NCBI GenBank assembly: GCA_014208095.1
Contig: JACHMT010000005.1
Location: 868,001 to 932,000, forward strand
Origin: Actinospineispora eucalypti
Lineage (GTDB): Bacteria > Actinomycetota > Actinomycetes > Mycobacteriales > Pseudonocardiaceae
DNA: 64,000 nucleotides
Direction of reading: 5' to 3'
A model generated the notes under the pieces. The model had not been told where the DNA came from. It worked only from the letters and a program-made list of their open reading frames with translations, and made no database searches. Each line of letters starts with the position of its first letter. The stretch's first letter is position 1. This document shows positions 51,925-64,000 of the stretch, piece after piece. The position numbers and the translations under genes are program-made.

Positions 51925-52665
51925 CTAGTCCGGCGTGCTCTGGCTCGCCGGCTTGCCCGGGCCGGTGAGCTCGCCCGTGGGGCTGCTCGCCGCCCTGGCG
52001 TAGGCGTCCCGCAGCTGCTGCTCGGCGTCGTCCAGGTACTCGTGGAGCAGCCGTTCGGCGAGCAGCCCGTCGCCGTCGCCGAGTGCGGCCAGGATCTCCC
52101 GGTTGCGCCTCAGGTACGGCTCGTGGAACCAGCGCACGTCGGTCATCACGTGGAAGACCAGGCGCAGTTCGGCCAGCACGCCGCGCATGAGCTCGTCGAT
52201 CCGGGGGCTGTCCGCGATGGCCGCGAGCGCCTCGTGGAACTGGATGTTGGCTGTGCCCAGCCCCCGCCAGTCCCGCTCGTCGATCGCGCGCTCACCCAGG
52301 CGGACGGCCTCGGTGAGGGCGCCGAGGTTGGCCGGCGGGCCGGTCACCGCGCGCACCACCGAGCACTGCACGTGCTTGCGCACCTTGTACAGGTCGAGCA
52401 CGTCGACCAGGTCCAGCTTGCGCACGAACATGCCCTGGTTGAGCTGGTGCACGAGCAGCCGCTCGTGGGTGAGCAGCCGGAACGCCTCGCGCAGCGTGTT
52501 GCGGGACACCCCGAGGGCCTTGGTGATCTCGTCCTCGGTGAGCCGCTCGCCGGGCGCGAAGTAGCCGGCGCTGATCCGGGCGCGCAGGATCCCCGCCACT
52601 CGCTCGGCGGTGCTGGTGCGACCGAGCAGCGCGCGGTCCGCGCTCAGGTCCTCCGTACTGGTCAC
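51925..52665 (-). CDS. GntR/FCD-family transcriptional regulator
   Basis: 246 aa. Winged HTH (about 20-80: TAERVAGILRARISAGYFAPG, TEDEITKALGVSRNTLREAFRLL) and a C-terminal FCD all-helical ligand domain (about 90-225) with the metal/ligand-type Asp and His positions in DVLDLYKVRKHVQ and IQFHEALAAIADS. GTG 52665 is preferred because the in-frame extension to 52707 would cross the dyad at 52691-52705. Divergent from pxpB, which it probably controls. It is paralogous to the second FCD regulator at 61264, with a near-identical HTH region. Confidence 0.87.
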   Translation of the reverse strand: MTSTEDLSADRALLGRTSTAERVAGILRARISAGYFAPGERLTEDEITKALGVSRNTLREAFRLLTHERLLVHQLNQGMFVRKLDLVDVLDLYKVRKHVQCSVVRAVTGPPANLGALTEAVRLGERAIDERDWRGLGTANIQFHEALAAIADSPRIDELMRGVLAELRLVFHVMTDVRWFHEPYLRRNREILAALGDGDGLLAERLLHEYLDDAEQQLRDAYARAASSPTGELTGPGKPASQSTPD

Positions 52666-52690
52666 GAAACGAAGTCTAGCCTGCTTGAGG

Positions 52691-52705
52691 GATTGTTCAA
52701 CAATC
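52691..52705. promoter_or_regulatory. FCD-GntR operator before pxpB
   Basis: GATTGTTCAACAATC is a perfect dyad of 7-bp arms with a central C, the TTGT-N-ACAA-like pattern of FCD regulators, 25 nt from the GntR start and 16 nt from the pxpB start. Confidence 0.72.
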
Positions 52706-52720
52706 ACCTATGGTGCCCGA

Positions 52721-53332
52721 ATGCACATCCTGCGTTGCGGCGCCGAGGCCGTCCTGGTCGAGCTGGACGACCGGGAGCAGGTGCTCGGGCTGCGTGCGGC
52801 GCTGCGCGAGGCCGGGCCGGACGGTCTGCTCGAGGTGGTGCCCGGCGCGCGCACGGTCCTGGTGCGGTTCGACCCGGCGCTCACCGGCCTGGCCCGGCTG
52901 CGCGAGCTGCTCGAGAAGCTGCCGCTGTCCGTGCGCGAAGACGCGGAGCCGGACGAGGTCGTCGTGCCGGTCCGCTACGACGGGGCGGACCTGGCCGACG
53001 TCGCCGAGCTCACCGGGTTGACCGTGCCCGAGGTCATCGCCCGGCACATCCAGGGCGAGTACAGGGTGGCGTTCTGCGGCTTCGCTCCCGGGTTCGCCTA
53101 CATCACCGGGCTGGACCGGCGCCTGCACGTGCCCCGCCGCGACAGCCCCCGCACCTCGGTGCCCACCGGCTCCGTCGCCCTGGCCGACGAGTACACCGGG
53201 ATCTACCCGAGTCCCTCGCCCGGTGGCTGGCGGCTGATCGGCCGCACCGAGCTGCGGCTGTGGGACCTGGACCGAGACCCGCCGACGCTGTTGGTCCCCG
53301 GCACCAGGGTGCGCTTCGAGGAGGCCGGGTGA
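52721..53332 (+). CDS. pxpB: 5-oxoprolinase subunit B (PxpB/KipI-like)
   Basis: 203 aa. One part of the ATP-dependent PxpABC 5-oxoprolinase that opens 5-oxoproline to glutamate; also related to allophanate hydrolase subunit 1. Family features: VPVRYDGADLADVAELTGL, VAFCGFAPGFAYITGLD (near residue 115), PRRDSPRTSVPTGSVALADEYTGIYPSPSPGGWRLIG split across 138-172. PxpB normally works with PxpC in a 2+2 complex. Here the following frame is a 14-codon stub and no pxpA is present, so this gene is an orphan and may be inactive on its own or pair with a distant subunit. ATG 52721. Confidence 0.85.
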   Translation: MHILRCGAEAVLVELDDREQVLGLRAALREAGPDGLLEVVPGARTVLVRFDPALTGLARLRELLEKLPLSVREDAEPDEVVVPVRYDGADLADVAELTGLTVPEVIARHIQGEYRVAFCGFAPGFAYITGLDRRLHVPRRDSPRTSVPTGSVALADEYTGIYPSPSPGGWRLIGRTELRLWDLDRDPPTLLVPGTRVRFEEAG

Positions 53333-53373
53333 CCCTGGCCATCTCGGTGTGCCGGAACCGCCCGGCGCGGTGA
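53329..53373 (+). pseudogene. Possible pxpC start remnant
   Basis: The pxpB stop overlaps a GTG (GTGA at 53329-53332), exactly as pxpB-pxpC pairs overlap in intact operons. The frame reads VTLAISVCRNRPAR and stops at 53371-53373. Its first residues resemble PxpC starts, but the remaining about 280 residues are missing. I infer a deletion that joined this point to the leader of the CoA-transferase gene. It is too short to be sure. Confidence 0.4.
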
Positions 53374-53413
53374 GACTGGGAGGGCAAGCTCAGCCAGCGG
53401 AAGGCGGTAATCG

Positions 53414-57104: not shown

Positions 57105-57887
57105 CTACCGGAGCACCCCGACCGCCCGGGCCAGGATCAGCGCCACGGTGACCAGCGAGATCATCGCCTGGGTGAGCGTGGTGAGCTTGGCCCAGCGCGA
57201 CAGCGGCGCGTCGGCCGGGCTGAACGCGGTGGCGTTGGTGAACGAGACGTACAGGTAGTCCACCAACCGCGGCTCCCAGTTCGGGTCGACCAGGTCGGCG
57301 TTGCCCATCTGGGCGAACAGGAAGTCCGGGTTGCGTTTCCGGGCCAGCGCCCGGGCCGCCGGCCCGCCCCGGTCGAACTGCCAGTACCAGAGCGCGAACG
57401 CGATCACGTTGGTCAGCCAGATCGCCGCCCCCGCCGCCAGCAGCGGCCCCGCCTCCGAGCCGCCCTGTCCGGTGATCATCGAGGCGGCCAGCAACGCGGC
57501 GGACCAGCCGTTGGCCACGCTCAGCACGCCGGTCAGCGTGAGGCTGCCCAGCCGCAGCGCCCGGCTCTCCCGGTCGAACCGACTCGGGTTGGCCACCACC
57601 AGCGCAACCAGCAGCACCACCTCGATGCCCGGAAGCAGCCACCAGTGCGGCGGCAGCAGCCGGTCCGGCAGGGCCAGCTGCAGCCCGATGGCCAGCGCGA
57701 TCATGGCCACCACCGGCCAGTGGCTCTCCCCGCGCGTCACCCGCAGCCAGGCCGGCAGGGTCTCGCCGTCGTTCGAGGTGATCGGCTCGGTGATCAGCCG
57801 TTCCAGGCGGTCCAGCTCGGTGCGCACGGTGTGCAGCTGTTGAAGGTGTTCGGTGCTCGTCACGGCGCCGATTTGAACCGTACCCAT
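57105..57887 (-). CDS. Multi-pass membrane protein (DUF1345-like)
   Basis: 260 aa. About six hydrophobic segments (roughly 60-75, 85-100, 112-132, 145-165, 210-225, 240-258). The stretch LVDYLYVSFTNATAFSPADAPLSRWAKLTTLTQAMISLVTVALILARAVG, split here at the loop before PADAPLS, resembles the pore-like end of two-TM potassium channels and DUF1345 proteins, but no TVGYG filter is present. Function unknown. ATG 57887 overlaps the nucleoside hydrolase stop (TGATG); GTG 57863 is an alternative start. Last gene of the operon starting with the MFS transporter at 61193. Confidence 0.72.
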   Translation of the reverse strand: MGTVQIGAVTSTEHLQQLHTVRTELDRLERLITEPITSNDGETLPAWLRVTRGESHWPVVAMIALAIGLQLALPDRLLPPHWWLLPGIEVVLLVALVVANPSRFDRESRALRLGSLTLTGVLSVANGWSAALLAASMITGQGGSEAGPLLAAGAAIWLTNVIAFALWYWQFDRGGPAARALARKRNPDFLFAQMGNADLVDPNWEPRLVDYLYVSFTNATAFSPADAPLSRWAKLTTLTQAMISLVTVALILARAVGVLR

Positions 57888-59065
57888 CAGCGCGCCGGCG
57901 GCTTGCCCAGCTCGCCGGCGTACAGGTCGTAGAACCGGGGGATGTCGATGCGCTGGACGATCCGCGCCGGCTGGGCGCCGGCCGGCGCGCGGCCGGGTTC
58001 GAAGCCCATCGTGCGGCCGTAGTTGACGCCGTACTGGGTGTACACCTGCACCTGCCGCACCACCGACTGGGTGATCAGGTCCGGCCGCAGGAACACCGCG
58101 GCGGCGATCTGGTCCCACAGGTGGGTGCGGCGCCCGGGGTCCTGGTCGAACTTGGGTCCGTGCAGGTCCTTGAACTCCTGCTTGATCGGGGTGTTCTCGC
58201 CGGCGACCAGCCGGTCGTACTCCGGCTTGCCGTACCAGACGGTGTCGGTCACATCCAGCGGCACCACCAGCTGGTCCGGGAACGGCGTGCCGAAGGCGAT
58301 CCGGGCGGCCTCCGGGTCGAACCACACGTTGAACTCGGCGGCTGGCCCCTGGTTGCCCGGCACGTCGAACGCCCCGGCCATGTAGACCACCTGCTTGACC
58401 AGCGGCACGATCTCCGGGTTCTTCTTCACCGCCAGCGCCACGTTGGTGGCCGGTCCGAGCGCGAACAGGGTGACCTCGTGCGGGTACCGCTTGACCTGGT
58501 CCACGATGAAGTCGACCGCGTTGCCGTCGGCCCTGGCCGCCTTGGCGTAGCCGCCGTAGGGCGGCCGGGGGAGCTGCCGGTAGTCGGCCGGCTGGGGGTG
58601 TTCCCAGGCCCCGGCGTAGCTGATGTCCGCACCGAACCGCTGGGCCTCGGCGGCCAGCGTGGCCTGCCGGCTGCCGAACAGCGGATCGGCCGACCCCTGG
58701 TACACCGGGACACCCGGTTGGCCCTGCAGCTCCAGCTGGCGCAGGGCGTAAGCGGCGCCCTCCACCGACCAGGTGTTGCCGGACACCGTGGTCACCCCGA
58801 GCACGTTCACCCCGGCCTGCTGGAGCAGGAACAGGGCCTGGGAGTCGTCGTTGAGCTCGCCGAAGTCGGTGTCGAAGATGACCTTCGCCCCGGTCGGTGC
58901 CGGACCCGGTGCGGCGGGTGCCCGGGTGCCAGGTGGCTGTGCGGCGGACGGTTGGGCGGCGGACGGTTGGGCGGCCGGCGGCAGTGCGGGGCCGGCGCAG
59001 GCCGCCAGCGCCACGGCGGCGGCGAGCGCGGCACCCAGTACGGCGGAGGCCCGGCCAAGGGGCAT
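57887..59065 (-). CDS. Nucleoside hydrolase-family lipoprotein
   Basis: 392 aa. Signal peptide with lipobox LAAC (Cys about 23), an Ala/Gln/Pro linker carrying the repeat AAQPS, then an IunH-type fold. The Ca-binding N-terminal motif is altered: DTDFGELNDDSQALF instead of DTDPGxDDAxA, but the Asp residues remain. VTLFALGPATNVALAVKKNPEI and AEFNVWFDPEAARIAF are normal; VPLDVTDTVWY keeps the late DVT motif. It should be anchored outside the cell and cleave a ribosyl- or similar N-glycosidic bond, giving a base or cyclic product for the MFS importer encoded in the same operon. TGATG overlaps on both sides. Confidence 0.83.
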   Translation of the reverse strand: MPLGRASAVLGAALAAAVALAACAGPALPPAAQPSAAQPSAAQPPGTRAPAAPGPAPTGAKVIFDTDFGELNDDSQALFLLQQAGVNVLGVTTVSGNTWSVEGAAYALRQLELQGQPGVPVYQGSADPLFGSRQATLAAEAQRFGADISYAGAWEHPQPADYRQLPRPPYGGYAKAARADGNAVDFIVDQVKRYPHEVTLFALGPATNVALAVKKNPEIVPLVKQVVYMAGAFDVPGNQGPAAEFNVWFDPEAARIAFGTPFPDQLVVPLDVTDTVWYGKPEYDRLVAGENTPIKQEFKDLHGPKFDQDPGRRTHLWDQIAAAVFLRPDLITQSVVRQVQVYTQYGVNYGRTMGFEPGRAPAGAQPARIVQRIDIPRFYDLYAGELGKPPAR

Positions 59066-59853
59066 CAGGCGGCCCCGGCGGGCCGGTCGGTGAGGAACAT
59101 GTGGCCCGGCGCGTGGGTGATGGCGACCTCCGGGCGCACCTCGGCGAACACCGCCTGCGGGGTCACCCCGCAGGCCCAGAACACCGGCACCTCGCCCGGC
59201 TCCAGGGGCAGCGGGTCGCCCCAGTCCGGTCGCTCCACGTCCGCGATGCCCAGCTCGGCCGGGTCGCCCGCGTGCAGGGGCGCGCCGTGGGCCAGCGGCA
59301 GCCGCCCGGTGACCTCGGTGGCCCGGTCGACCTGGTCGGCGGCGATGGCCCGCATGGAGACCACCACCGGCCCGTGGAACCGGCCGGCCGGCGTGCAGCG
59401 CAGCGAGGTGCGGAACATCGGCACGTTGGTACCCAGCTCCAGGTGGCGCAGCCGCACCCCGGCGTCGTGCAGCGCGTCCTCCGCGCTGAAGCTGCACCCG
59501 AGCAGGAAGCCCACCGAGTCGTCCCGCCACAGGTCCTCGATGGAGGTCGGCTCGCCGGCCAGCTCGCCGTTCCGGTAGACCCGGTAGCGCGGCAGGTCGG
59601 TGCGCAGGTCCGCGCCGGGCGCGGTGGCCAGCCGGTCCGGCACCCCGGGCGGGGTGGCCTCCAGCAGCGGCAGCGGCTTCGGGTTGGCCGCGCAGAACTC
59701 GGCGAACTCCCCGGCCAGCTCGGCGGGCAGGATCGCCAGGTTGGCCTGCAGGTAGCCGGCGCACAGTCCGGTGGTGATCCCGGCCCACCGGCCTTCCCGG
59801 ATGCGGGCCCTCGCCTCGGCGGGCGAGTCGGCCGCGGTGATCACGGGGTTCAC
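59065..59853 (-). CDS. DUF1445 family protein (YcsI-like putative hydro-lyase / D-glutamate cyclase-like)
   Basis: 262 aa. Family hallmarks: AGITTGLCAGYLQANLAILP near residue 25, DSVGFLLGCSFSAEDAL near 125, NVPMFRTSLRC, GPVVVSMR and VFWACGVTPQAVF, AITHAPGHMFLTD at the end. In Bacillus subtilis the homologue ycsI lies in the operon with pxpA, kipI (pxpB) and kipA (pxpC), and the domain also occurs in mammalian D-glutamate cyclase. A role in 5-oxoproline or D-glutamate turnover is therefore likely though unproved. GTG 59853 overlaps the MFS stop (GTGA) and its stop overlaps the next start, so the operon is translationally coupled. Confidence 0.86.
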   Translation of the reverse strand: MNPVITAADSPAEARARIREGRWAGITTGLCAGYLQANLAILPAELAGEFAEFCAANPKPLPLLEATPPGVPDRLATAPGADLRTDLPRYRVYRNGELAGEPTSIEDLWRDDSVGFLLGCSFSAEDALHDAGVRLRHLELGTNVPMFRTSLRCTPAGRFHGPVVVSMRAIAADQVDRATEVTGRLPLAHGAPLHAGDPAELGIADVERPDWGDPLPLEPGEVPVFWACGVTPQAVFAEVRPEVAITHAPGHMFLTDRPAGAA

Positions 59854-61193
59854 TGGATGTCGACCTCCTTGGTCTCCGGGCCGAGCAGCGCGCCGGCCGT
59901 GCTCAGCGCACCGCCCAGCACGATGAGCACGATCGGCGTGTACTCGTAGGGCATCAGGTACCCCAACCCCAGCATGTAGAACGCGTAGAAGCCAGGGACG
60001 ATCACCGCCAGGCTGTAGCCGATGCCGTAGCCGGACGCCCGCACGCCGGTGGCGAACCGCTCCAGGATGTAGGTCGAGACGATGCCCCACGGGGAGACCG
60101 TCAACACCAGCGCGGCGGTGGCGAACACCATCACCGGCAGCAGGCTCCCGGCACCGGGTGTCGCCGCGTCAAACCCGGCCCGGACCATGGCGAAGAACAC
60201 GAACGGCGCCACCAGCACCGTCCACACCCCGGCCAGGACCAGCATCCGGCGCCGGCCGAACCGCTGGCCGAGCAGCGCCATCACCAGGTAGCCGATCGCC
60301 ACGAACACGTTGGCCACCAGCAGCCCGGTGGTCACCGAGCCGCTGGGCAGCCCGATCACCGTGGTGAGCAGGGCCGGGGTGGCGGAGAGCGTGGCCTGCA
60401 CGGTGAACCACATGCCGGTCATCAACAGCAGCACCTGCAGCAGCGCGCGCCGGTGGCCGCCGGTCAGCAGGTCCTTCAGCGGTTCGTTCGACGATTTCTC
60501 CCGTTGGCGCTGGGCCGCGCGGAACACCGCCGACTCCTCGACCCGGCGGTAGTAGAGCAGGAAGGCCACCGACAGCGCGGCGCCGACGAAGAACGGCACC
60601 CGCCAGCCCCACTGCACGTAGGGCGAGTCCAGGCCGCCGGCCGGGGTGAACTGGAACATGGTCGCCACCACCACCGAGATGGCGATGTAGCCGACCGGGT
60701 AGGAGGCGGCGATCAGCCCGCCGACCAGGCCGCGCAGCCGCTTCGGGCTGGCCTCCATGGCGAGCGGGTTGGCGCTGGAGTACTCGCCGCCCATGAACAC
60801 CCCGCCGACGAACCGCAGCAGCAGCACCAGCCCGATCGCCGCCCAGCCGATCGCCTGGTAGCCCGGCAGCAAGCCCATGAGCAGGGTGCACGCCCCCGCG
60901 CCGGCCACGCTGATCAGGGTCGCCCGCCGCCGGCCGGTGCGGTCGGCGATCCGGCCGAACACCACGGCGCCGACCGGCCGGCCGATCAGCGTGACGGCCA
61001 GCGTGACGTAGGCCAGCGTGGCGGCGGTCGCGGGGGAGGTGTGCGCCGGTTGGAAGTAGGCGATCGCCGGGGTGAGCGCGACCACCGGCAGGTAGATGTC
61101 GAAGTAGTCGACGGTGAACCCGAAGCACGCCCCTCGGATGGCCCGTTTCGCGGTCGGCCCCAGCCGCTCCGACTCCACCACCGCACTGGTCAT
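59850..61193 (-). CDS. MFS transporter, metabolite:H+ symporter type
   Basis: 447 aa, 12 TM segments. FDIYLPVVALTPAIAYF at TM1, GRIADRTGRRRATLISV (motif A) between TM2 and TM3, RFVGGVFMGGEYSSANPLAMEASPKRLRG (split around the TM4-5 loop), and WGWRVPFFVG after TM6 are typical of the sugar/aromatic-acid/organic-acid MHS group (ShiA, ProP, KgtP). It would import a small carboxylate, amide or lactam. ATG 61193 chosen over a frame to 61217. First gene of the minus-strand operon. A GntR-type dyad lies 45 nt upstream, identical to those before the hydantoinase gene. Confidence 0.88.
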   Translation of the reverse strand: MTSAVVESERLGPTAKRAIRGACFGFTVDYFDIYLPVVALTPAIAYFQPAHTSPATAATLAYVTLAVTLIGRPVGAVVFGRIADRTGRRRATLISVAGAGACTLLMGLLPGYQAIGWAAIGLVLLLRFVGGVFMGGEYSSANPLAMEASPKRLRGLVGGLIAASYPVGYIAISVVVATMFQFTPAGGLDSPYVQWGWRVPFFVGAALSVAFLLYYRRVEESAVFRAAQRQREKSSNEPLKDLLTGGHRRALLQVLLLMTGMWFTVQATLSATPALLTTVIGLPSGSVTTGLLVANVFVAIGYLVMALLGQRFGRRRMLVLAGVWTVLVAPFVFFAMVRAGFDAATPGAGSLLPVMVFATAALVLTVSPWGIVSTYILERFATGVRASGYGIGYSLAVIVPGFYAFYMLGLGYLMPYEYTPIVLIVLGGALSTAGALLGPETKEVDIQ

Positions 61194-61237
61194 CTCACCC
61201 GCACCCCCTCGCCCCAAGGTGATTCAGGACACTAATA

Positions 61238-61252
61238 GATCGTCCGACGATC
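61238..61252. promoter_or_regulatory. GntR operator copy 1 (MFS operon)
   Basis: GATCGTCCGACGATC is a perfect 15-bp dyad with a central C. It lies between the GntR stop and the MFS start, 45 nt from the latter, and is identical to the copy at 61969-61983. Confidence 0.85.
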
Positions 61253-61263
61253 CGCCAGCCTTC

Positions 61264-61917
61264 TCAGGGGGGGTCGATGAAGTTGGTGAGGAGTTCGGTC
61301 TCGGCGTCGTGGAGGTACTGGGCGAGCATCTGGGCGGCGGCTTCGGTGTTGCCGGTGCGGAGGGTGTCGGCGATCTCGCCGTTGCGTTTGAGGAACGCGG
61401 AGTGGAACAGCTGGGTGTCCCGCATGTAGGCGTAGGCCAGGCGGAACTCGGCCAGCACGCCGGAGATGATGGTGTCCAGCCGTTCGCTGCCGGCCAGCGC
61501 GACCACCGCCTCGTGGAACCGGATGCTGGCCGCCGCGACCTCGTCCCAGCGGCCCACCTCGGCGGCCCGCTGGCCATCGGTGATCGCGGCGGCCAGCCGC
61601 CGCAGCCCCGGCACGCTCAGGCTCTCGATGCTGCGCACGGCGGCGCACTCGATCACCCGGCGGGCCTGGTAGAGGTCCGCCACGTCGGGCCGGGAGAGCC
61701 GGCGCACGAACACCCCTCGGCTGAGCTCGTGCACCAGCAGCCGCTCGCGGATGAGCAGCCGGAACGCCTCGCGCAGCGTGCTGCGGGACACCCCGTGAGC
61801 CTGCCGCGCCCGGTCCTCGGAGATCCGGCTGCCGGGCACCAGTTCGCCGGCCAGGATCTGGGCCCGCAGCGCGTCGGCGACCCGGCTGGCCGCCCCGTCG
61901 GACGTGGGTTCGGTCAT
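61264..61917 (-). CDS. GntR/FCD-family transcriptional regulator
   Basis: 217 aa. HTH about 10-70 (SRVADALRAQILAGELVPGSR, ARQAHGVSRSTLREAFRLLI) and FCD domain about 75-205 (DVADLYQARRVIECAAVRSI, SIRFHEAVVALAGSERL). Closely related to the regulator at 51925. It lies between two sets of the dyad GATCGTCCGACGATC: one before the MFS operon and two before the divergent hydantoinase gene. It is therefore almost certainly the local regulator of both, and of itself. ATG 61917 with GAGGG upstream. A likely ligand is an intermediate of the pathway. Confidence 0.9.
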   Translation of the reverse strand: MTEPTSDGAASRVADALRAQILAGELVPGSRISEDRARQAHGVSRSTLREAFRLLIRERLLVHELSRGVFVRRLSRPDVADLYQARRVIECAAVRSIESLSVPGLRRLAAAITDGQRAAEVGRWDEVAAASIRFHEAVVALAGSERLDTIISGVLAEFRLAYAYMRDTQLFHSAFLKRNGEIADTLRTGNTEAAAQMLAQYLHDAETELLTNFIDPP

Positions 61918-61968
61918 CCGCTGCCCTCGCTCGTTGCTCGGTTGCCGTAGCCGGCCCAGCATACCGCC

Positions 61969-62006
61969 GATCGTCCGACGATCTGTTGCTCGATCGTCGG
62001 ACGAAA
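61969..62006. promoter_or_regulatory. GntR operator copies 2 and 3
   Basis: Copy 2 at 61969-61983 is GATCGTCCGACGATC. Copy 3 at 61992-62006 reads GATCGTCGGACGAAA, matching the complement of copy 2 in 13 of 15 positions. Their starts are 23 nt apart, about two helix turns. Copy 3 reaches to within 15 nt of the hyuA start. Confidence 0.85.
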
Positions 62007-62020
62007 TGTACCGTCCGGGC

Positions 62021-64000
62021 ATGGGCGAAGGCGGCGTGCTGCGGGTCGGCGTGGACATCGGCGGCACGTTCACCGACCTGGCAATCCTGGACGACGAGGG
62101 CATTCTGGCCATCGGCAAGACGCTCACCACGCCCCGGGACCCGGCCCAGGCGGTGCACACGGTGCTGCGCCGCGCGCTGGCCGACCACCGGCTGGACCCG
62201 GCCCGGGTCGGCCTGGTGGTGCACGGCACCACCCTGGTGACCAACGCCCTGATCGAGCGCCGGGGGGCGCGCACCGCGCTGATCACCACCGAGGGCTTCC
62301 GTGACGTGGTGGAGATGGGCCGGGAGCACCGTTACGAGCTGTACGACCTCAACCTGCGGCTGCCCCGCCCGCTGGCCGCGCGCCACCTGCGGTTCGGCGT
62401 GCGCGAGCGGCTGCTCGCCGACGGCACCGTGCAGACACCGCTGGACGCCGGCCAGGTGGAGCGGCTGGCCGGGGAGCTGGCCGCCGCCGGGGTCGAGGCG
62501 GTCGCGGTGTGCTTTCTGCACAGCCACCTCGACGACCGGCACGAGCGGCGCGCCCGGGAGATCATCAAGGCCGCCGCGCCGGGGCTGCGGGTGGCGCTGT
62601 CCAGCGAGGTGAACCCGGAGATCCGGGAGTACGAGCGGGCGTCCACCACGCTGGCCAACGTCTACGTGCAGGGGCTGGTCGAGGATTACCTGGACGACCT
62701 GCGCGGGCGGCTGCGCGGCCTGGGAGTGCCGGTGGACCCGCTGGTCATGCTGTCGCACGGCGGGCTGGCCACGGTGGACGTGGCGAAGCGGTTCCCGATC
62801 CGCATGCTGGAGTCCGGGCCGGCCGGCGGGGCGCTGGGCGCGGTGGCGTTCGGCCGCACCGGCGGGCGGCCGGACCAGATGTCCTTCGACATGGGCGGCA
62901 CCACGGCCAAGCTGTGTGTGATCGAGCGGCACCGGCCGCTGGTGACCCACGCGTTCGAGGTGGACCGGGTGTACCGGCTGCGCGCCGGTTCCGGCCTGCC
63001 GGTCCGGGCCCCGGTGATCGACATGATCGAGATCGGCACCGGCGGCGGCTCGCTGGCCCGGGTGAACGCGCTCGGCCTGATCACCACCGGGCCGGACTCG
63101 GCCGGCGCCGAGCCGGGTCCGGTCTGCTACGGGCGGGGCGGCGAGCGGTGCACGGTCACCGACGCCGACGCGGTGCTCGGCTACCTGGACCCGGAGCGGT
63201 TCGGCGGCGGCGAGGTGAAGCTGGACGTGGCGGCGGCCGCCGAGGCGATCCGCGAGCAGATTGCCGGGCGGCTCGGGGTGGGCCTGGCCGAGGCGGCCTG
63301 GGGCATCCACGCCTGCGCCAACGAGAGCATGGCCAACGCGGCCAGGGTGCACGCCATCGAACGGGGCCAGGACCCGGCCCGGCTGCCGCTGTTCACGTCC
63401 GGCGGCAACGGGCCGCTGCACGGGCCGGGGGTGGCCGCCGCGCTCGGCTCGCCGGCGTTGGTGGTGCCCCCGGCGGCCGGGGTGCTGAGCGCCCTGGGTT
63501 TCCTGTCCGCCCCGATGTCCATCGACGTGGTGCGGTCCCGGCACGAGCTGCTGGACGAGCTGGCCCCGGAGGACGCCGAGCGGCTGTTCGCGTCGCTGGA
63601 GCGGGAGGGGGCCGAGGTGCTCACCGGCTCCGGGCTGGCCGCCAAGGAGGTCCGCTACGAGCGGAGCATGGAGATGCGGTTCGTGGGCCAGGGCAGTGAG
63701 ATCGAGGTGCCGGTGCCGGCCGCGGGCCCGGACTGGCGGGCCGAGCTGGCGGAGAGCTTCCACCGGCAGTACGCCCGCCGGTTCGGGGACGTGGCTCCGA
63801 CCGGGGTGGCCGTCGAGGCGCTCACCTGGCGGGTCACCGCCAGCGGGCCGGCGCCGACCGCCCGGCTGCGCTTCGACGGCGGATCCGGCACGGGGGACGC
63901 CCTGCTGGACCACCGCGAGGCCTACTTCCCGGACGGCGGCTACCGCCCGACCCCGGTCTACGACCGCTACCGGCTGGCCGAGGGGGCCGAGCTGACCGGG
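62021..64000 (+). CDS. hyuA: Hydantoinase/5-oxoprolinase, A-type subunit, 3' end outside window
   Basis: 660 codons are visible, open at the window end (the family is about 680-720 aa). ATP-dependent opening of a cyclic amide: hydantoins, 5-oxoproline or related lactams. N-terminal actin-like domain: VGVDIGGTFTDLAILDD (phosphate loop), VVHGTTLVTNALIERRGARTALITTEGFRDV split at about 75-90; second domain SGPAGGALGAVAFG, SFDMGGTTAKLCVIE, EIGTGGGSLARV, and FTSGGNGPLHGPGVAAALG. HyuB normally follows and should lie just beyond. ATG 62021 is chosen; in-frame ATG 62006 overlaps operator copy 3. Divergent from its GntR regulator. Confidence 0.92.
   Translation, partial: MGEGGVLRVGVDIGGTFTDLAILDDEGILAIGKTLTTPRDPAQAVHTVLRRALADHRLDPARVGLVVHGTTLVTNALIERRGARTALITTEGFRDVVEMGREHRYELYDLNLRLPRPLAARHLRFGVRERLLADGTVQTPLDAGQVERLAGELAAAGVEAVAVCFLHSHLDDRHERRAREIIKAAAPGLRVALSSEVNPEIREYERASTTLANVYVQGLVEDYLDDLRGRLRGLGVPVDPLVMLSHGGLATVDVAKRFPIRMLESGPAGGALGAVAFGRTGGRPDQMSFDMGGTTAKLCVIERHRPLVTHAFEVDRVYRLRAGSGLPVRAPVIDMIEIGTGGGSLARVNALGLITTGPDSAGAEPGPVCYGRGGERCTVTDADAVLGYLDPERFGGGEVKLDVAAAAEAIREQIAGRLGVGLAEAAWGIHACANESMANAARVHAIERGQDPARLPLFTSGGNGPLHGPGVAAALGSPALVVPPAAGVLSALGFLSAPMSIDVVRSRHELLDELAPEDAERLFASLEREGAEVLTGSGLAAKEVRYERSMEMRFVGQGSEIEVPVPAAGPDWRAELAESFHRQYARRFGDVAPTGVAVEALTWRVTASGPAPTARLRFDGGSGTGDALLDHREAYFPDGGYRPTPVYDRYRLAEGAELTG

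Follow-up and report, generated by a model that had tools for sequence, protein, structure and literature searches.

We found that the FCD-GntR regulator GntR1, encoded in the window (the whole stretch of 64,000 nucleotides of DNA analysed here, from a soil-type actinobacterium), probably switches on an importer and an ATP-driven ring-opening enzyme together. Our preferred reading, to which we assign a probability of roughly two in three, is that these genes form a self-contained, repressor-controlled module that takes up a 5-oxoproline-like lactam and uses ATP to open it. As judged from sequence, the module is a conserved local FCD-GntR catabolic regulon and a paralogous PxpR-system variant that has an operator address, an importer and a ring-opening enzyme of its own. 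The operators, their conservation, their overlap with promoters, the gene set and the joint difference in operator and contact residues all emerge from the comparison of related loci.

Architecture and conservation of the GntR1 locus

GntR1 is encoded on the minus strand (61264..61917) and combines a GntR winged helix (PF00392, 48 bits) with a C-terminal FCD domain (PF07729, 59.5 bits), both above cut-off; its AlphaFold2 model has a pLDDT of 91. The gene is flanked on both sides by GATCGTCNGACGATC-type sites. Predicted operator 1, the gntR-proximal one, is an exact GATCGTCCGACGATC at 61969..61983 and lies 23 bp from predicted operator 2, the hyuA-proximal GATCGTCGGACGAAA (61992..62006, plus strand), which agrees with GATCGTCCGACGATC in 13 of 15 bases on the minus strand and in 12 of 15 on the plus strand and is situated between the -35 and -10 boxes of hyuA. 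Predicted operator 3, again an exact GATCGTCCGACGATC (61238..61252, minus strand), lies just upstream of the MFS gene's -10-like box, TAGTGT (61229-61234); the matching -35 is weak. A preliminary description of this DNA had placed three dyads at these positions around an FCD-GntR gene, and we could confirm the coordinates, the 13-of-15 copy and the protein domains.

Four genes are read from the minus strand beyond operator 3. They encode a metabolite:H+ symporter-like MFS importer (59850..61193; TIGR00883 match below its cut-off), a DUF1445 protein of the PF07286 "D-glutamate cyclase" family (59065..59853; 210 bits for PF07286, and 372 bits against a cut-off of 324 for the putative hydro-lyase model NF003969), a nucleoside-hydrolase-family protein (IU_nuc_hydro, 57887..59065) and a membrane protein (57105..57887; DUF1345 match below cut-off). 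From the MFS gene to the membrane protein gene, starts and stops overlap by four bases (GTGA, ATGA and ATGA, read from the sequence), and the genes with their coupled starts are as described before. On the plus strand, HyuA, the ATP-binding subunit (hydantoinase A, 691 aa), begins at 62021, runs to the window's end at 64000 and ends beyond it at C5:932096. It is directly followed, with an overlapping start outside the window, by HyuB (L007:309-2003; PF02538).

Among the matches listed, GntR1-type proteins of at least 63% identity are present in 8 of the 297 family genomes, the own genome included, and the next-best matches reach at most 54%. The gene order DUF1445-MFS-GntR1-HyuA-HyuB is kept in five genomes of one genus, with the MFS lost in one, and in Pseudonocardia spinosispora. 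Saccharopolyspora shandongensis, S. oryzae, S. hirsuta and S. elongata make up four of these five genomes; in S. elongata (L078:7407-8801) a TnpB-type transposon protein occupies the place of the MFS, the DUF1445 gene is cut and the importer-side operator is halved. The MFS of the window is 78-80% identical to that of the Saccharopolyspora and P. spinosispora loci. Two further loci, L081 and L082, combine GntR1-HyuAB with another MFS and have no DUF1445 in the region. In a phylum sample, GntR1 was found at E up to 1e-55 in only 1 of 396 genomes, the own one, which suggests that the module is rare.

The dyads follow the genes. All seven other loci found by protein search carry a site before hyuA, and five of them carry the pair with the 23 bp spacing seen in the window, while L081 and L082 have a single site before hyuA and no pair. 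A mismatch-free TCGTCNGACGA is found upstream of gntR in 8/8 protein-found loci, window included. An importer-side site is present in 13 of 15 GntR1 loci; none was found in L109, and L078 retains half a site. By this comparison the dyads are real and conserved.

Additionally, we scanned a collection that represents 84,980 species by one genome each (contigs of at least 3 kb) at the DNA level alone, using the pattern TCGTCNGACGA, twelve free bases, TCGTCNGACGA. The scan was run without a control pattern, and matches in the own or very near genomes may be left out. It gave 17 stretches, 12 of them at the GntR1-HyuA locus: six from Streptomyces, four from Saccharopolyspora, one from P. spinosispora and one from an Arthrobacter. 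GntR1 is present in 11 of the 12. The L107 stretch does not include HyuA, which is present in L076 from the same genome; in Streptomyces sp. SID8352 (L106:3381-4756), paired operators and hyuAB are present, and no GntR1 gene was found between the operators and the MFS. The remaining five stretches are one Gordonia locus and four from three metagenome-assembled genomes. Seven of the 15 GntR1 loci were found by the pattern, and their upstream pair and 23 bp spacing hold by construction; their genes, promoters, residues and importer-side sites, the last of which lie outside the scan pattern, count as independent evidence.

The locus occurs in two variants, one with the MFS and DUF1445 and the other with a different MFS and no DUF1445 in the stretch. 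This second MFS also belongs to the metabolite:H+ symporter group, with TIGR00883 below cut-off and ProP next in the three cases tested. Across the loci compared, the conserved core comprises GntR1, an MFS importer and HyuAB, and DUF1445 is part of one variant. The gene set and the sites thus recur in related loci, and the proposal that the MFS and DUF1445 genes are linked with the divergent hydantoinase through GntR and its dyads was borne out. Conservation of the dyads and co-occurrence of the operons were the two points on which the preliminary description had been prepared to be refuted; both held in the sequence comparison.

GntR1 and the PxpR-type regulators

The same window contains, 8.5 kb from the GntR1 module, a PxpR-type regulator with a known 5-oxoproline operator, which was absent from the earlier account. 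This regulator, GntR2 (51925..52665, minus strand), is classed as PxpR-type by its operator and its neighbour and served as our comparison regulator. The divergent neighbour on the plus strand (52721..53332) encodes a PxpB-like protein (TIGR00370, 142.7 bits at a cut-off of 145.6), and between the two genes lies the operator GATTGTTCAACAATC (52691..52705), identical to the 15-base core of the Corynebacterium glutamicum PxpR site. Beside the window's pxpB (51925-53375) there is no pxpA or pxpC, just a 14-codon frame with an overlapping start at the possible pxpC start. In the available part of the C. glutamicum report (PMC13274462), PxpR is described as a repressor that binds 5-oxoproline at 726 nM; its operator is AGATTGTTCAACAATCT, and altering or deleting this operator raised reporter output 6.5-fold.

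In a tree of the regulators, the GntR1-type and PxpR-type rows are split by one branch (100/100); the tree is unrooted, does not include C. glutamicum PxpR and has two ungrouped long rows on the PxpR side. Judged by this tree, GntR1 and the PxpR-type regulators are paralogues. The two groups also differ in their operators. We detected TTGTTNAACAA in 28/28 PxpR-type loci, eight times perfectly and 20 times with one mismatch (one half-site TCGTT), whereas its best match in the GntR1 loci has two to four mismatches in 15/15 cases. Conversely, the best match of TCGTCNGACGA in PxpR-type loci has between one (in one locus) and three mismatches. Two control palindromes miss by one to four bases across the 43 loci. 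The 28 PxpR-type loci come from 28 genomes, several of them nearly identical in protein. Left out of the 43-locus count were second copies (L001, L002, L016-L023, L107, L111, L116 and L118), short loci equal to L085-L088 and L094, and L106, which has no GntR1 gene. L095 was also dropped, being about equidistant from both regulator groups and having no site under the strict rule.

The change in the operator amounts to two bases per half-site and is accompanied by a change of two residues in the DNA-binding domain: Ser46 and Ser66 are present in 15/15 GntR1 proteins, while the PxpR-type proteins have Asn46 (28/28) and Asn66 (27/28). Further differences in this domain are I56/T and R57/H (GntR1/PxpR-type) and positions 11, 20, 26 and 37. 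By ungapped correspondence, residues 46 and 66 equal Thr-46 and Gly-66 of FadR and are the contact positions 39 and 59 of the FadR-subfamily survey PMC4494728. The text of that survey gives two correlations, one of position 39 with bases 9/11, where Asn prefers A/T, and one of position 59 with bases 6/14, where Gly prefers G/C and Asn leans non-significantly towards A/T. If the palindrome centre is numbered 10, the half-site bases that differ here are 6 and 9, base 6 being T with Asn66 and C with Ser66, and base 9 being T with Asn46 and C with Ser46. Since each regulator group is one clade, this match of operator and residues is a single event and hence a correlation and not a proof. In the FCD domain, the groups differ consistently at positions 127-129, 131, 158, 162 and 163, which could mean that the ligand differs as well; Ala163 is found in 14/15 GntR1 proteins, compared with His or Tyr in 28/28 PxpR-type proteins.

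Like FadR-subfamily members in the survey, GntR1 joins a GntR domain to an FCD domain and has an TNGTNNNACNA dyad near its own gene, with double sites at a fixed distance in a divergon. It differs in the C/G of its operator at positions 6/14 and 9/11 and in the Ser at the two matching contact positions. A word search of the survey's main text gave no hydantoin or oxoproline group. The module also resembles the PxpR-pxpTABC system of C. glutamicum (PMC13274462): both have a divergent GntR gene next to an importer and an ATP-dependent lactam-opening enzyme, and the same 15-base operator frame. PxpR-type loci may also carry DUF1445 (7 of 10 regions, picked by eye). However, the module uses TCGTCNGACGA in place of TTGTTNAACAA, with paired operators plus one, an MFS protein replaces the APC-superfamily importer PxpT, HyuAB replaces PxpABC, and the regulator falls outside the PxpR-type rows of the tree. 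Because its operator and its targets are not those of PxpR, we do not file the module as a PxpR regulon. The window offers a natural pair, a PxpR-type regulator whose operator is known from experiment and a paralogue that uses another address. As two base pairs per half-site differ together with two DNA-contact residues, the way in which duplicated repressors become independent is testable by two point changes.

The candidate substrate

We favour a 5-oxoproline-like lactam as the substrate because of the kinship of the regulator, the ProP-group importers, the ATP motifs of HyuA and the fact that no carbamoylase was noticed in the partly searched flanks. A second enzyme for 5-oxoproline itself would not be needed, given that three PxpA-family (PF03746) and three PxpC-family (PF02626) matches are encoded elsewhere in the genome. 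A hydantoin or dihydropyrimidine-like ring, which HyuAB would open to an N-carbamoyl amino acid, has the homology of HyuAB to hydantoinases in its favour, and for both subunits the top match in a structural database is a solved N-methylhydantoinase. Nevertheless, we noticed no N-carbamoylase gene in the flanks, whose proteins were partly searched, and GntR1 is kin to the 5-oxoproline sensor group, so that we consider such a ring unlikely. Among the matches listed in our literature search for a GntR-hydantoinase or an oxoprolinase-Streptomyces regulon, we found no paper on this regulon. Two dyads 23 bp apart could serve as a searchable tag for a lactam-use module of which we found no description, and as a handle on the role of DUF1445.

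About 8-10 kb downstream of hyuB we observed a gene for an amidohydrolase (L007:10311-11885) that by eye resembles D-aminoacylase (Pfam Amidohydro_3). It stands near a CoA-transferase and a second MFS.

Promoters and regulation

The predicted hyuA promoter (61986..62014, plus strand) consists of TTGCTC (61986-61991), a 17-bp gap that is filled by operator 2, and TACCGT (62009-62014). When the hyuA-side sites are aligned on the operator, TTG appears at most 8 bases upstream in 16/16 and TANNNT 2-3 bases downstream in 15/16, and in 15 of the 16 loci the site fills the gap between -35 and -10. Eight loci of this comparison came from the site-pair pattern, which does not extend to the promoter boxes. 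On the importer side we found TANNGT in 11/11 and TTG in 9/11, the window's own site being an exception without a clear -35; this alignment excludes L077, L080, L078, L106 and L109, of which L077 and L080 do have a site.

With the hyuA-side site occupying the spacer between -35 and -10, GntR1 is likely to repress by promoter occlusion, which is the simplest mechanism by which the predicted operators would act. From these arrangements we infer binding, repression, ligand, transport and reaction as follows. GntR1 would bind the TCGTCNGACGA dyads, one of which fills the spacer of the hyuAB promoter. The second dyad, 23 bp or about two helical turns towards gntR, would likely be occupied cooperatively, in line with PMC4494728, where a constant distance between the double sites of a divergon is taken to mean cooperativity. 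The third dyad would cover the promoter from which the MFS and DUF1445 genes are transcribed. RNA polymerase would be kept out by the bound repressor until cytoplasmic lactam releases the latter. Import of the lactam through the MFS protein would follow, HyuA/HyuB would spend ATP on opening the ring to yield an amino acid, and DUF1445, in the variant that carries it, would act on substrate or product.

One may ask whether GntR1 is instead an activator or acts solely on its own gene. Operator 1 indeed lies towards gntR, whose promoter we could not locate with confidence, but operators are placed inside the core promoters of both hyuA and the importer gene, where a bound protein should block the polymerase. 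With PxpR itself described as a repressor (PMC13274462), we regard this alternative as very unlikely.

The predicted -10 box of hyuA ends 6 bases before the ATG (window 62009-62021), which may make the transcript leaderless in this genome; in the Saccharopolyspora loci the leader is longer.

The probable ring-opening enzyme and DUF1445

HyuA contains the ATP motifs DIGGTFTDL, DMGGT and GAEPGP (family motifs DxGGT, DMGGT and GxxPGP), and HyuB is a Hydantoinase_B protein (PF02538, 483.5 bits). The best NCBIfam name for both subunits is caprolactamase, with 454.6 and 226.9 bits against a cut-off of 1000 and with the HyuA query cut at the window end. With the ATP-dependent lactamase family of CapAB, OplAB, hydantoinases and 5-oxoprolinase (PMC8453981, PMC11033972), HyuAB shares the ATP motifs, the Hydantoinase_B partner and the unfused subunits. 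In comparison with CapAB (PMC8453981), the module scores far below the equivalog cut-offs and the metal ligand His99 is replaced by Gln, as it is in 6/6 HyuB proteins aligned. The canonical Asp-His-Asp-His metal site is altered accordingly to D34, Q94, D97 and H119 in HyuB. The fused 7hk5 chain also departs from the canonical site, at the other His. By domain and fold, HyuAB belongs to the ATP-dependent lactamase family, with a changed canonical metal site. An invariant Cys-Cys-His (117-119) was seen at the second metal His in 6/6 HyuB proteins aligned.

Alternatively, HyuAB could act as a carboxylase that depends on ATP, like those for acetone and acetophenone, which belong to the same superfamily and both appear among its matches. 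However, the N-methylhydantoinase entry and caprolactamase match better, and HyuAB consists of two adjacent subunits as in lactamases, no third subunit gene being noticed by eye. We judge a carboxylase to be highly improbable.

DUF1445 accompanies only part of the loci; L081 and L082 showed none, and neither did the stretches from Streptomyces and Arthrobacter. Close relatives in L084 (72%) and L083 (65%) stand in 14 kb regions that have no GntR1, this MFS or HyuAB, which speaks against the module reading; the genome of L083 has its GntR1-HyuAB locus on another contig, L082. The Pfam name D-glutamate cyclase for PF07286 presumably derives from the mouse protein 9030617O03Rik. In the available part of the report on that enzyme (PMC5339696), which shares the DUF1445 domain with the module protein, D-glutamate cyclase activity was shown for the whole mammalian protein, and the racemase-like homology lies in its other domain, DUF4392. 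Among the matches listed in our DUF1445/YcsI literature search, none reports an activity for a DUF1445 protein alone.

Within our preferred reading of lactam uptake and opening, one may speculate further that GntR1 is a duplicated 5-oxoproline sensor that gained a new operator (N46S, N66S) and a new ligand. The module would then be devoted to a lactam that is not known to serve bacteria as a regulated nutrient. One example is 5-oxo-D-proline derived from D-glutamate; DUF1445 would handle the D-glutamate, and the Gln-site HyuB would open the ring. We regard this extension as possible, but clearly less likely than not.

The nucleoside hydrolase and the membrane protein

The preliminary description had treated the four minus-strand genes as one unit, which did not survive the comparison for its last two members. 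In 20 regions for gene-content comparison, picked by eye from search listings and including seven GntR1 loci, and in the 17 pattern stretches, we found no homologue of the nucleoside hydrolase or the membrane protein, as far as the stretches reach; both appear to be lineage-specific riders. Among 59 other genus genomes, the nucleoside hydrolase has two close relatives (71-72%), followed by the next at 42%, and neither of the two has GntR1, MFS, DUF1445 or HyuAB within about 9 kb. The most fitting view is therefore that the hydrolase gene was added to the operon in this lineage, where it may well be co-expressed with it, and we reject the hydrolase as a member of the pathway because homologues at related loci were not found and its close relatives stand apart from the module genes.

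This bears on the earlier proposal of an uptake and degradation unit in which the nucleoside hydrolase acts extracellularly on a ribosylated cyclic amide, which is then imported and opened. The start of the hydrolase gene does overlap the DUF1445 stop (ATGA) in this genome, and a lipobox-like LAAC was seen by eye at the start of the protein. With no homologue found at related loci, however, extracellular cleavage of a ribosylated substrate lacks comparative support, and we find it scarcely credible.

The dyad in the whole genome

With three mismatches allowed, the window holds 8 matches where 2.96 would be expected; a count of 8 was attained in 2 of 100 shuffles, which makes this a weak test. 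The whole-genome search is the stronger test of chance. In 9,624,083 bases, the ATCGTCSGACGAT core without mismatch occurs only at two sites, both in the window, and allowing one mismatch adds nine places, among them the third local site. As a control, the pattern read backwards gave one place in the genome against 11 for ATCGTCSGACGAT. That the dyads are chance repeats, as the mildly unusual three-mismatch window count might by itself allow, is refuted by their conservation in the protein-found loci and by this core search, and its probability is negligible.

We also considered a wider GntR1 regulon in this genome and rejected it, since at the eight one-mismatch sites elsewhere no related neighbour was recognised when the open frames were judged by eye. 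One of these sites adjoins what looks, by eye, like ftsZ.

Related dyads were seen in the scan stretches outside the GntR1-HyuA locus. In Gordonia jinhuaensis (L104:7521-7558), two GTCGTCTGACGAC dyads with the 23 bp spacing precede a different GntR gene (33%) and adjoin what by eye is a proline racemase-like gene. The four stretches from metagenome-assembled genomes of Thermoanaerobaculia, Saprospiraceae and Bacteroidota (L108, L114, L115 and L117) contain runs of TTCGTCNGACGAA-like dyads in steps of 14-23 bases.
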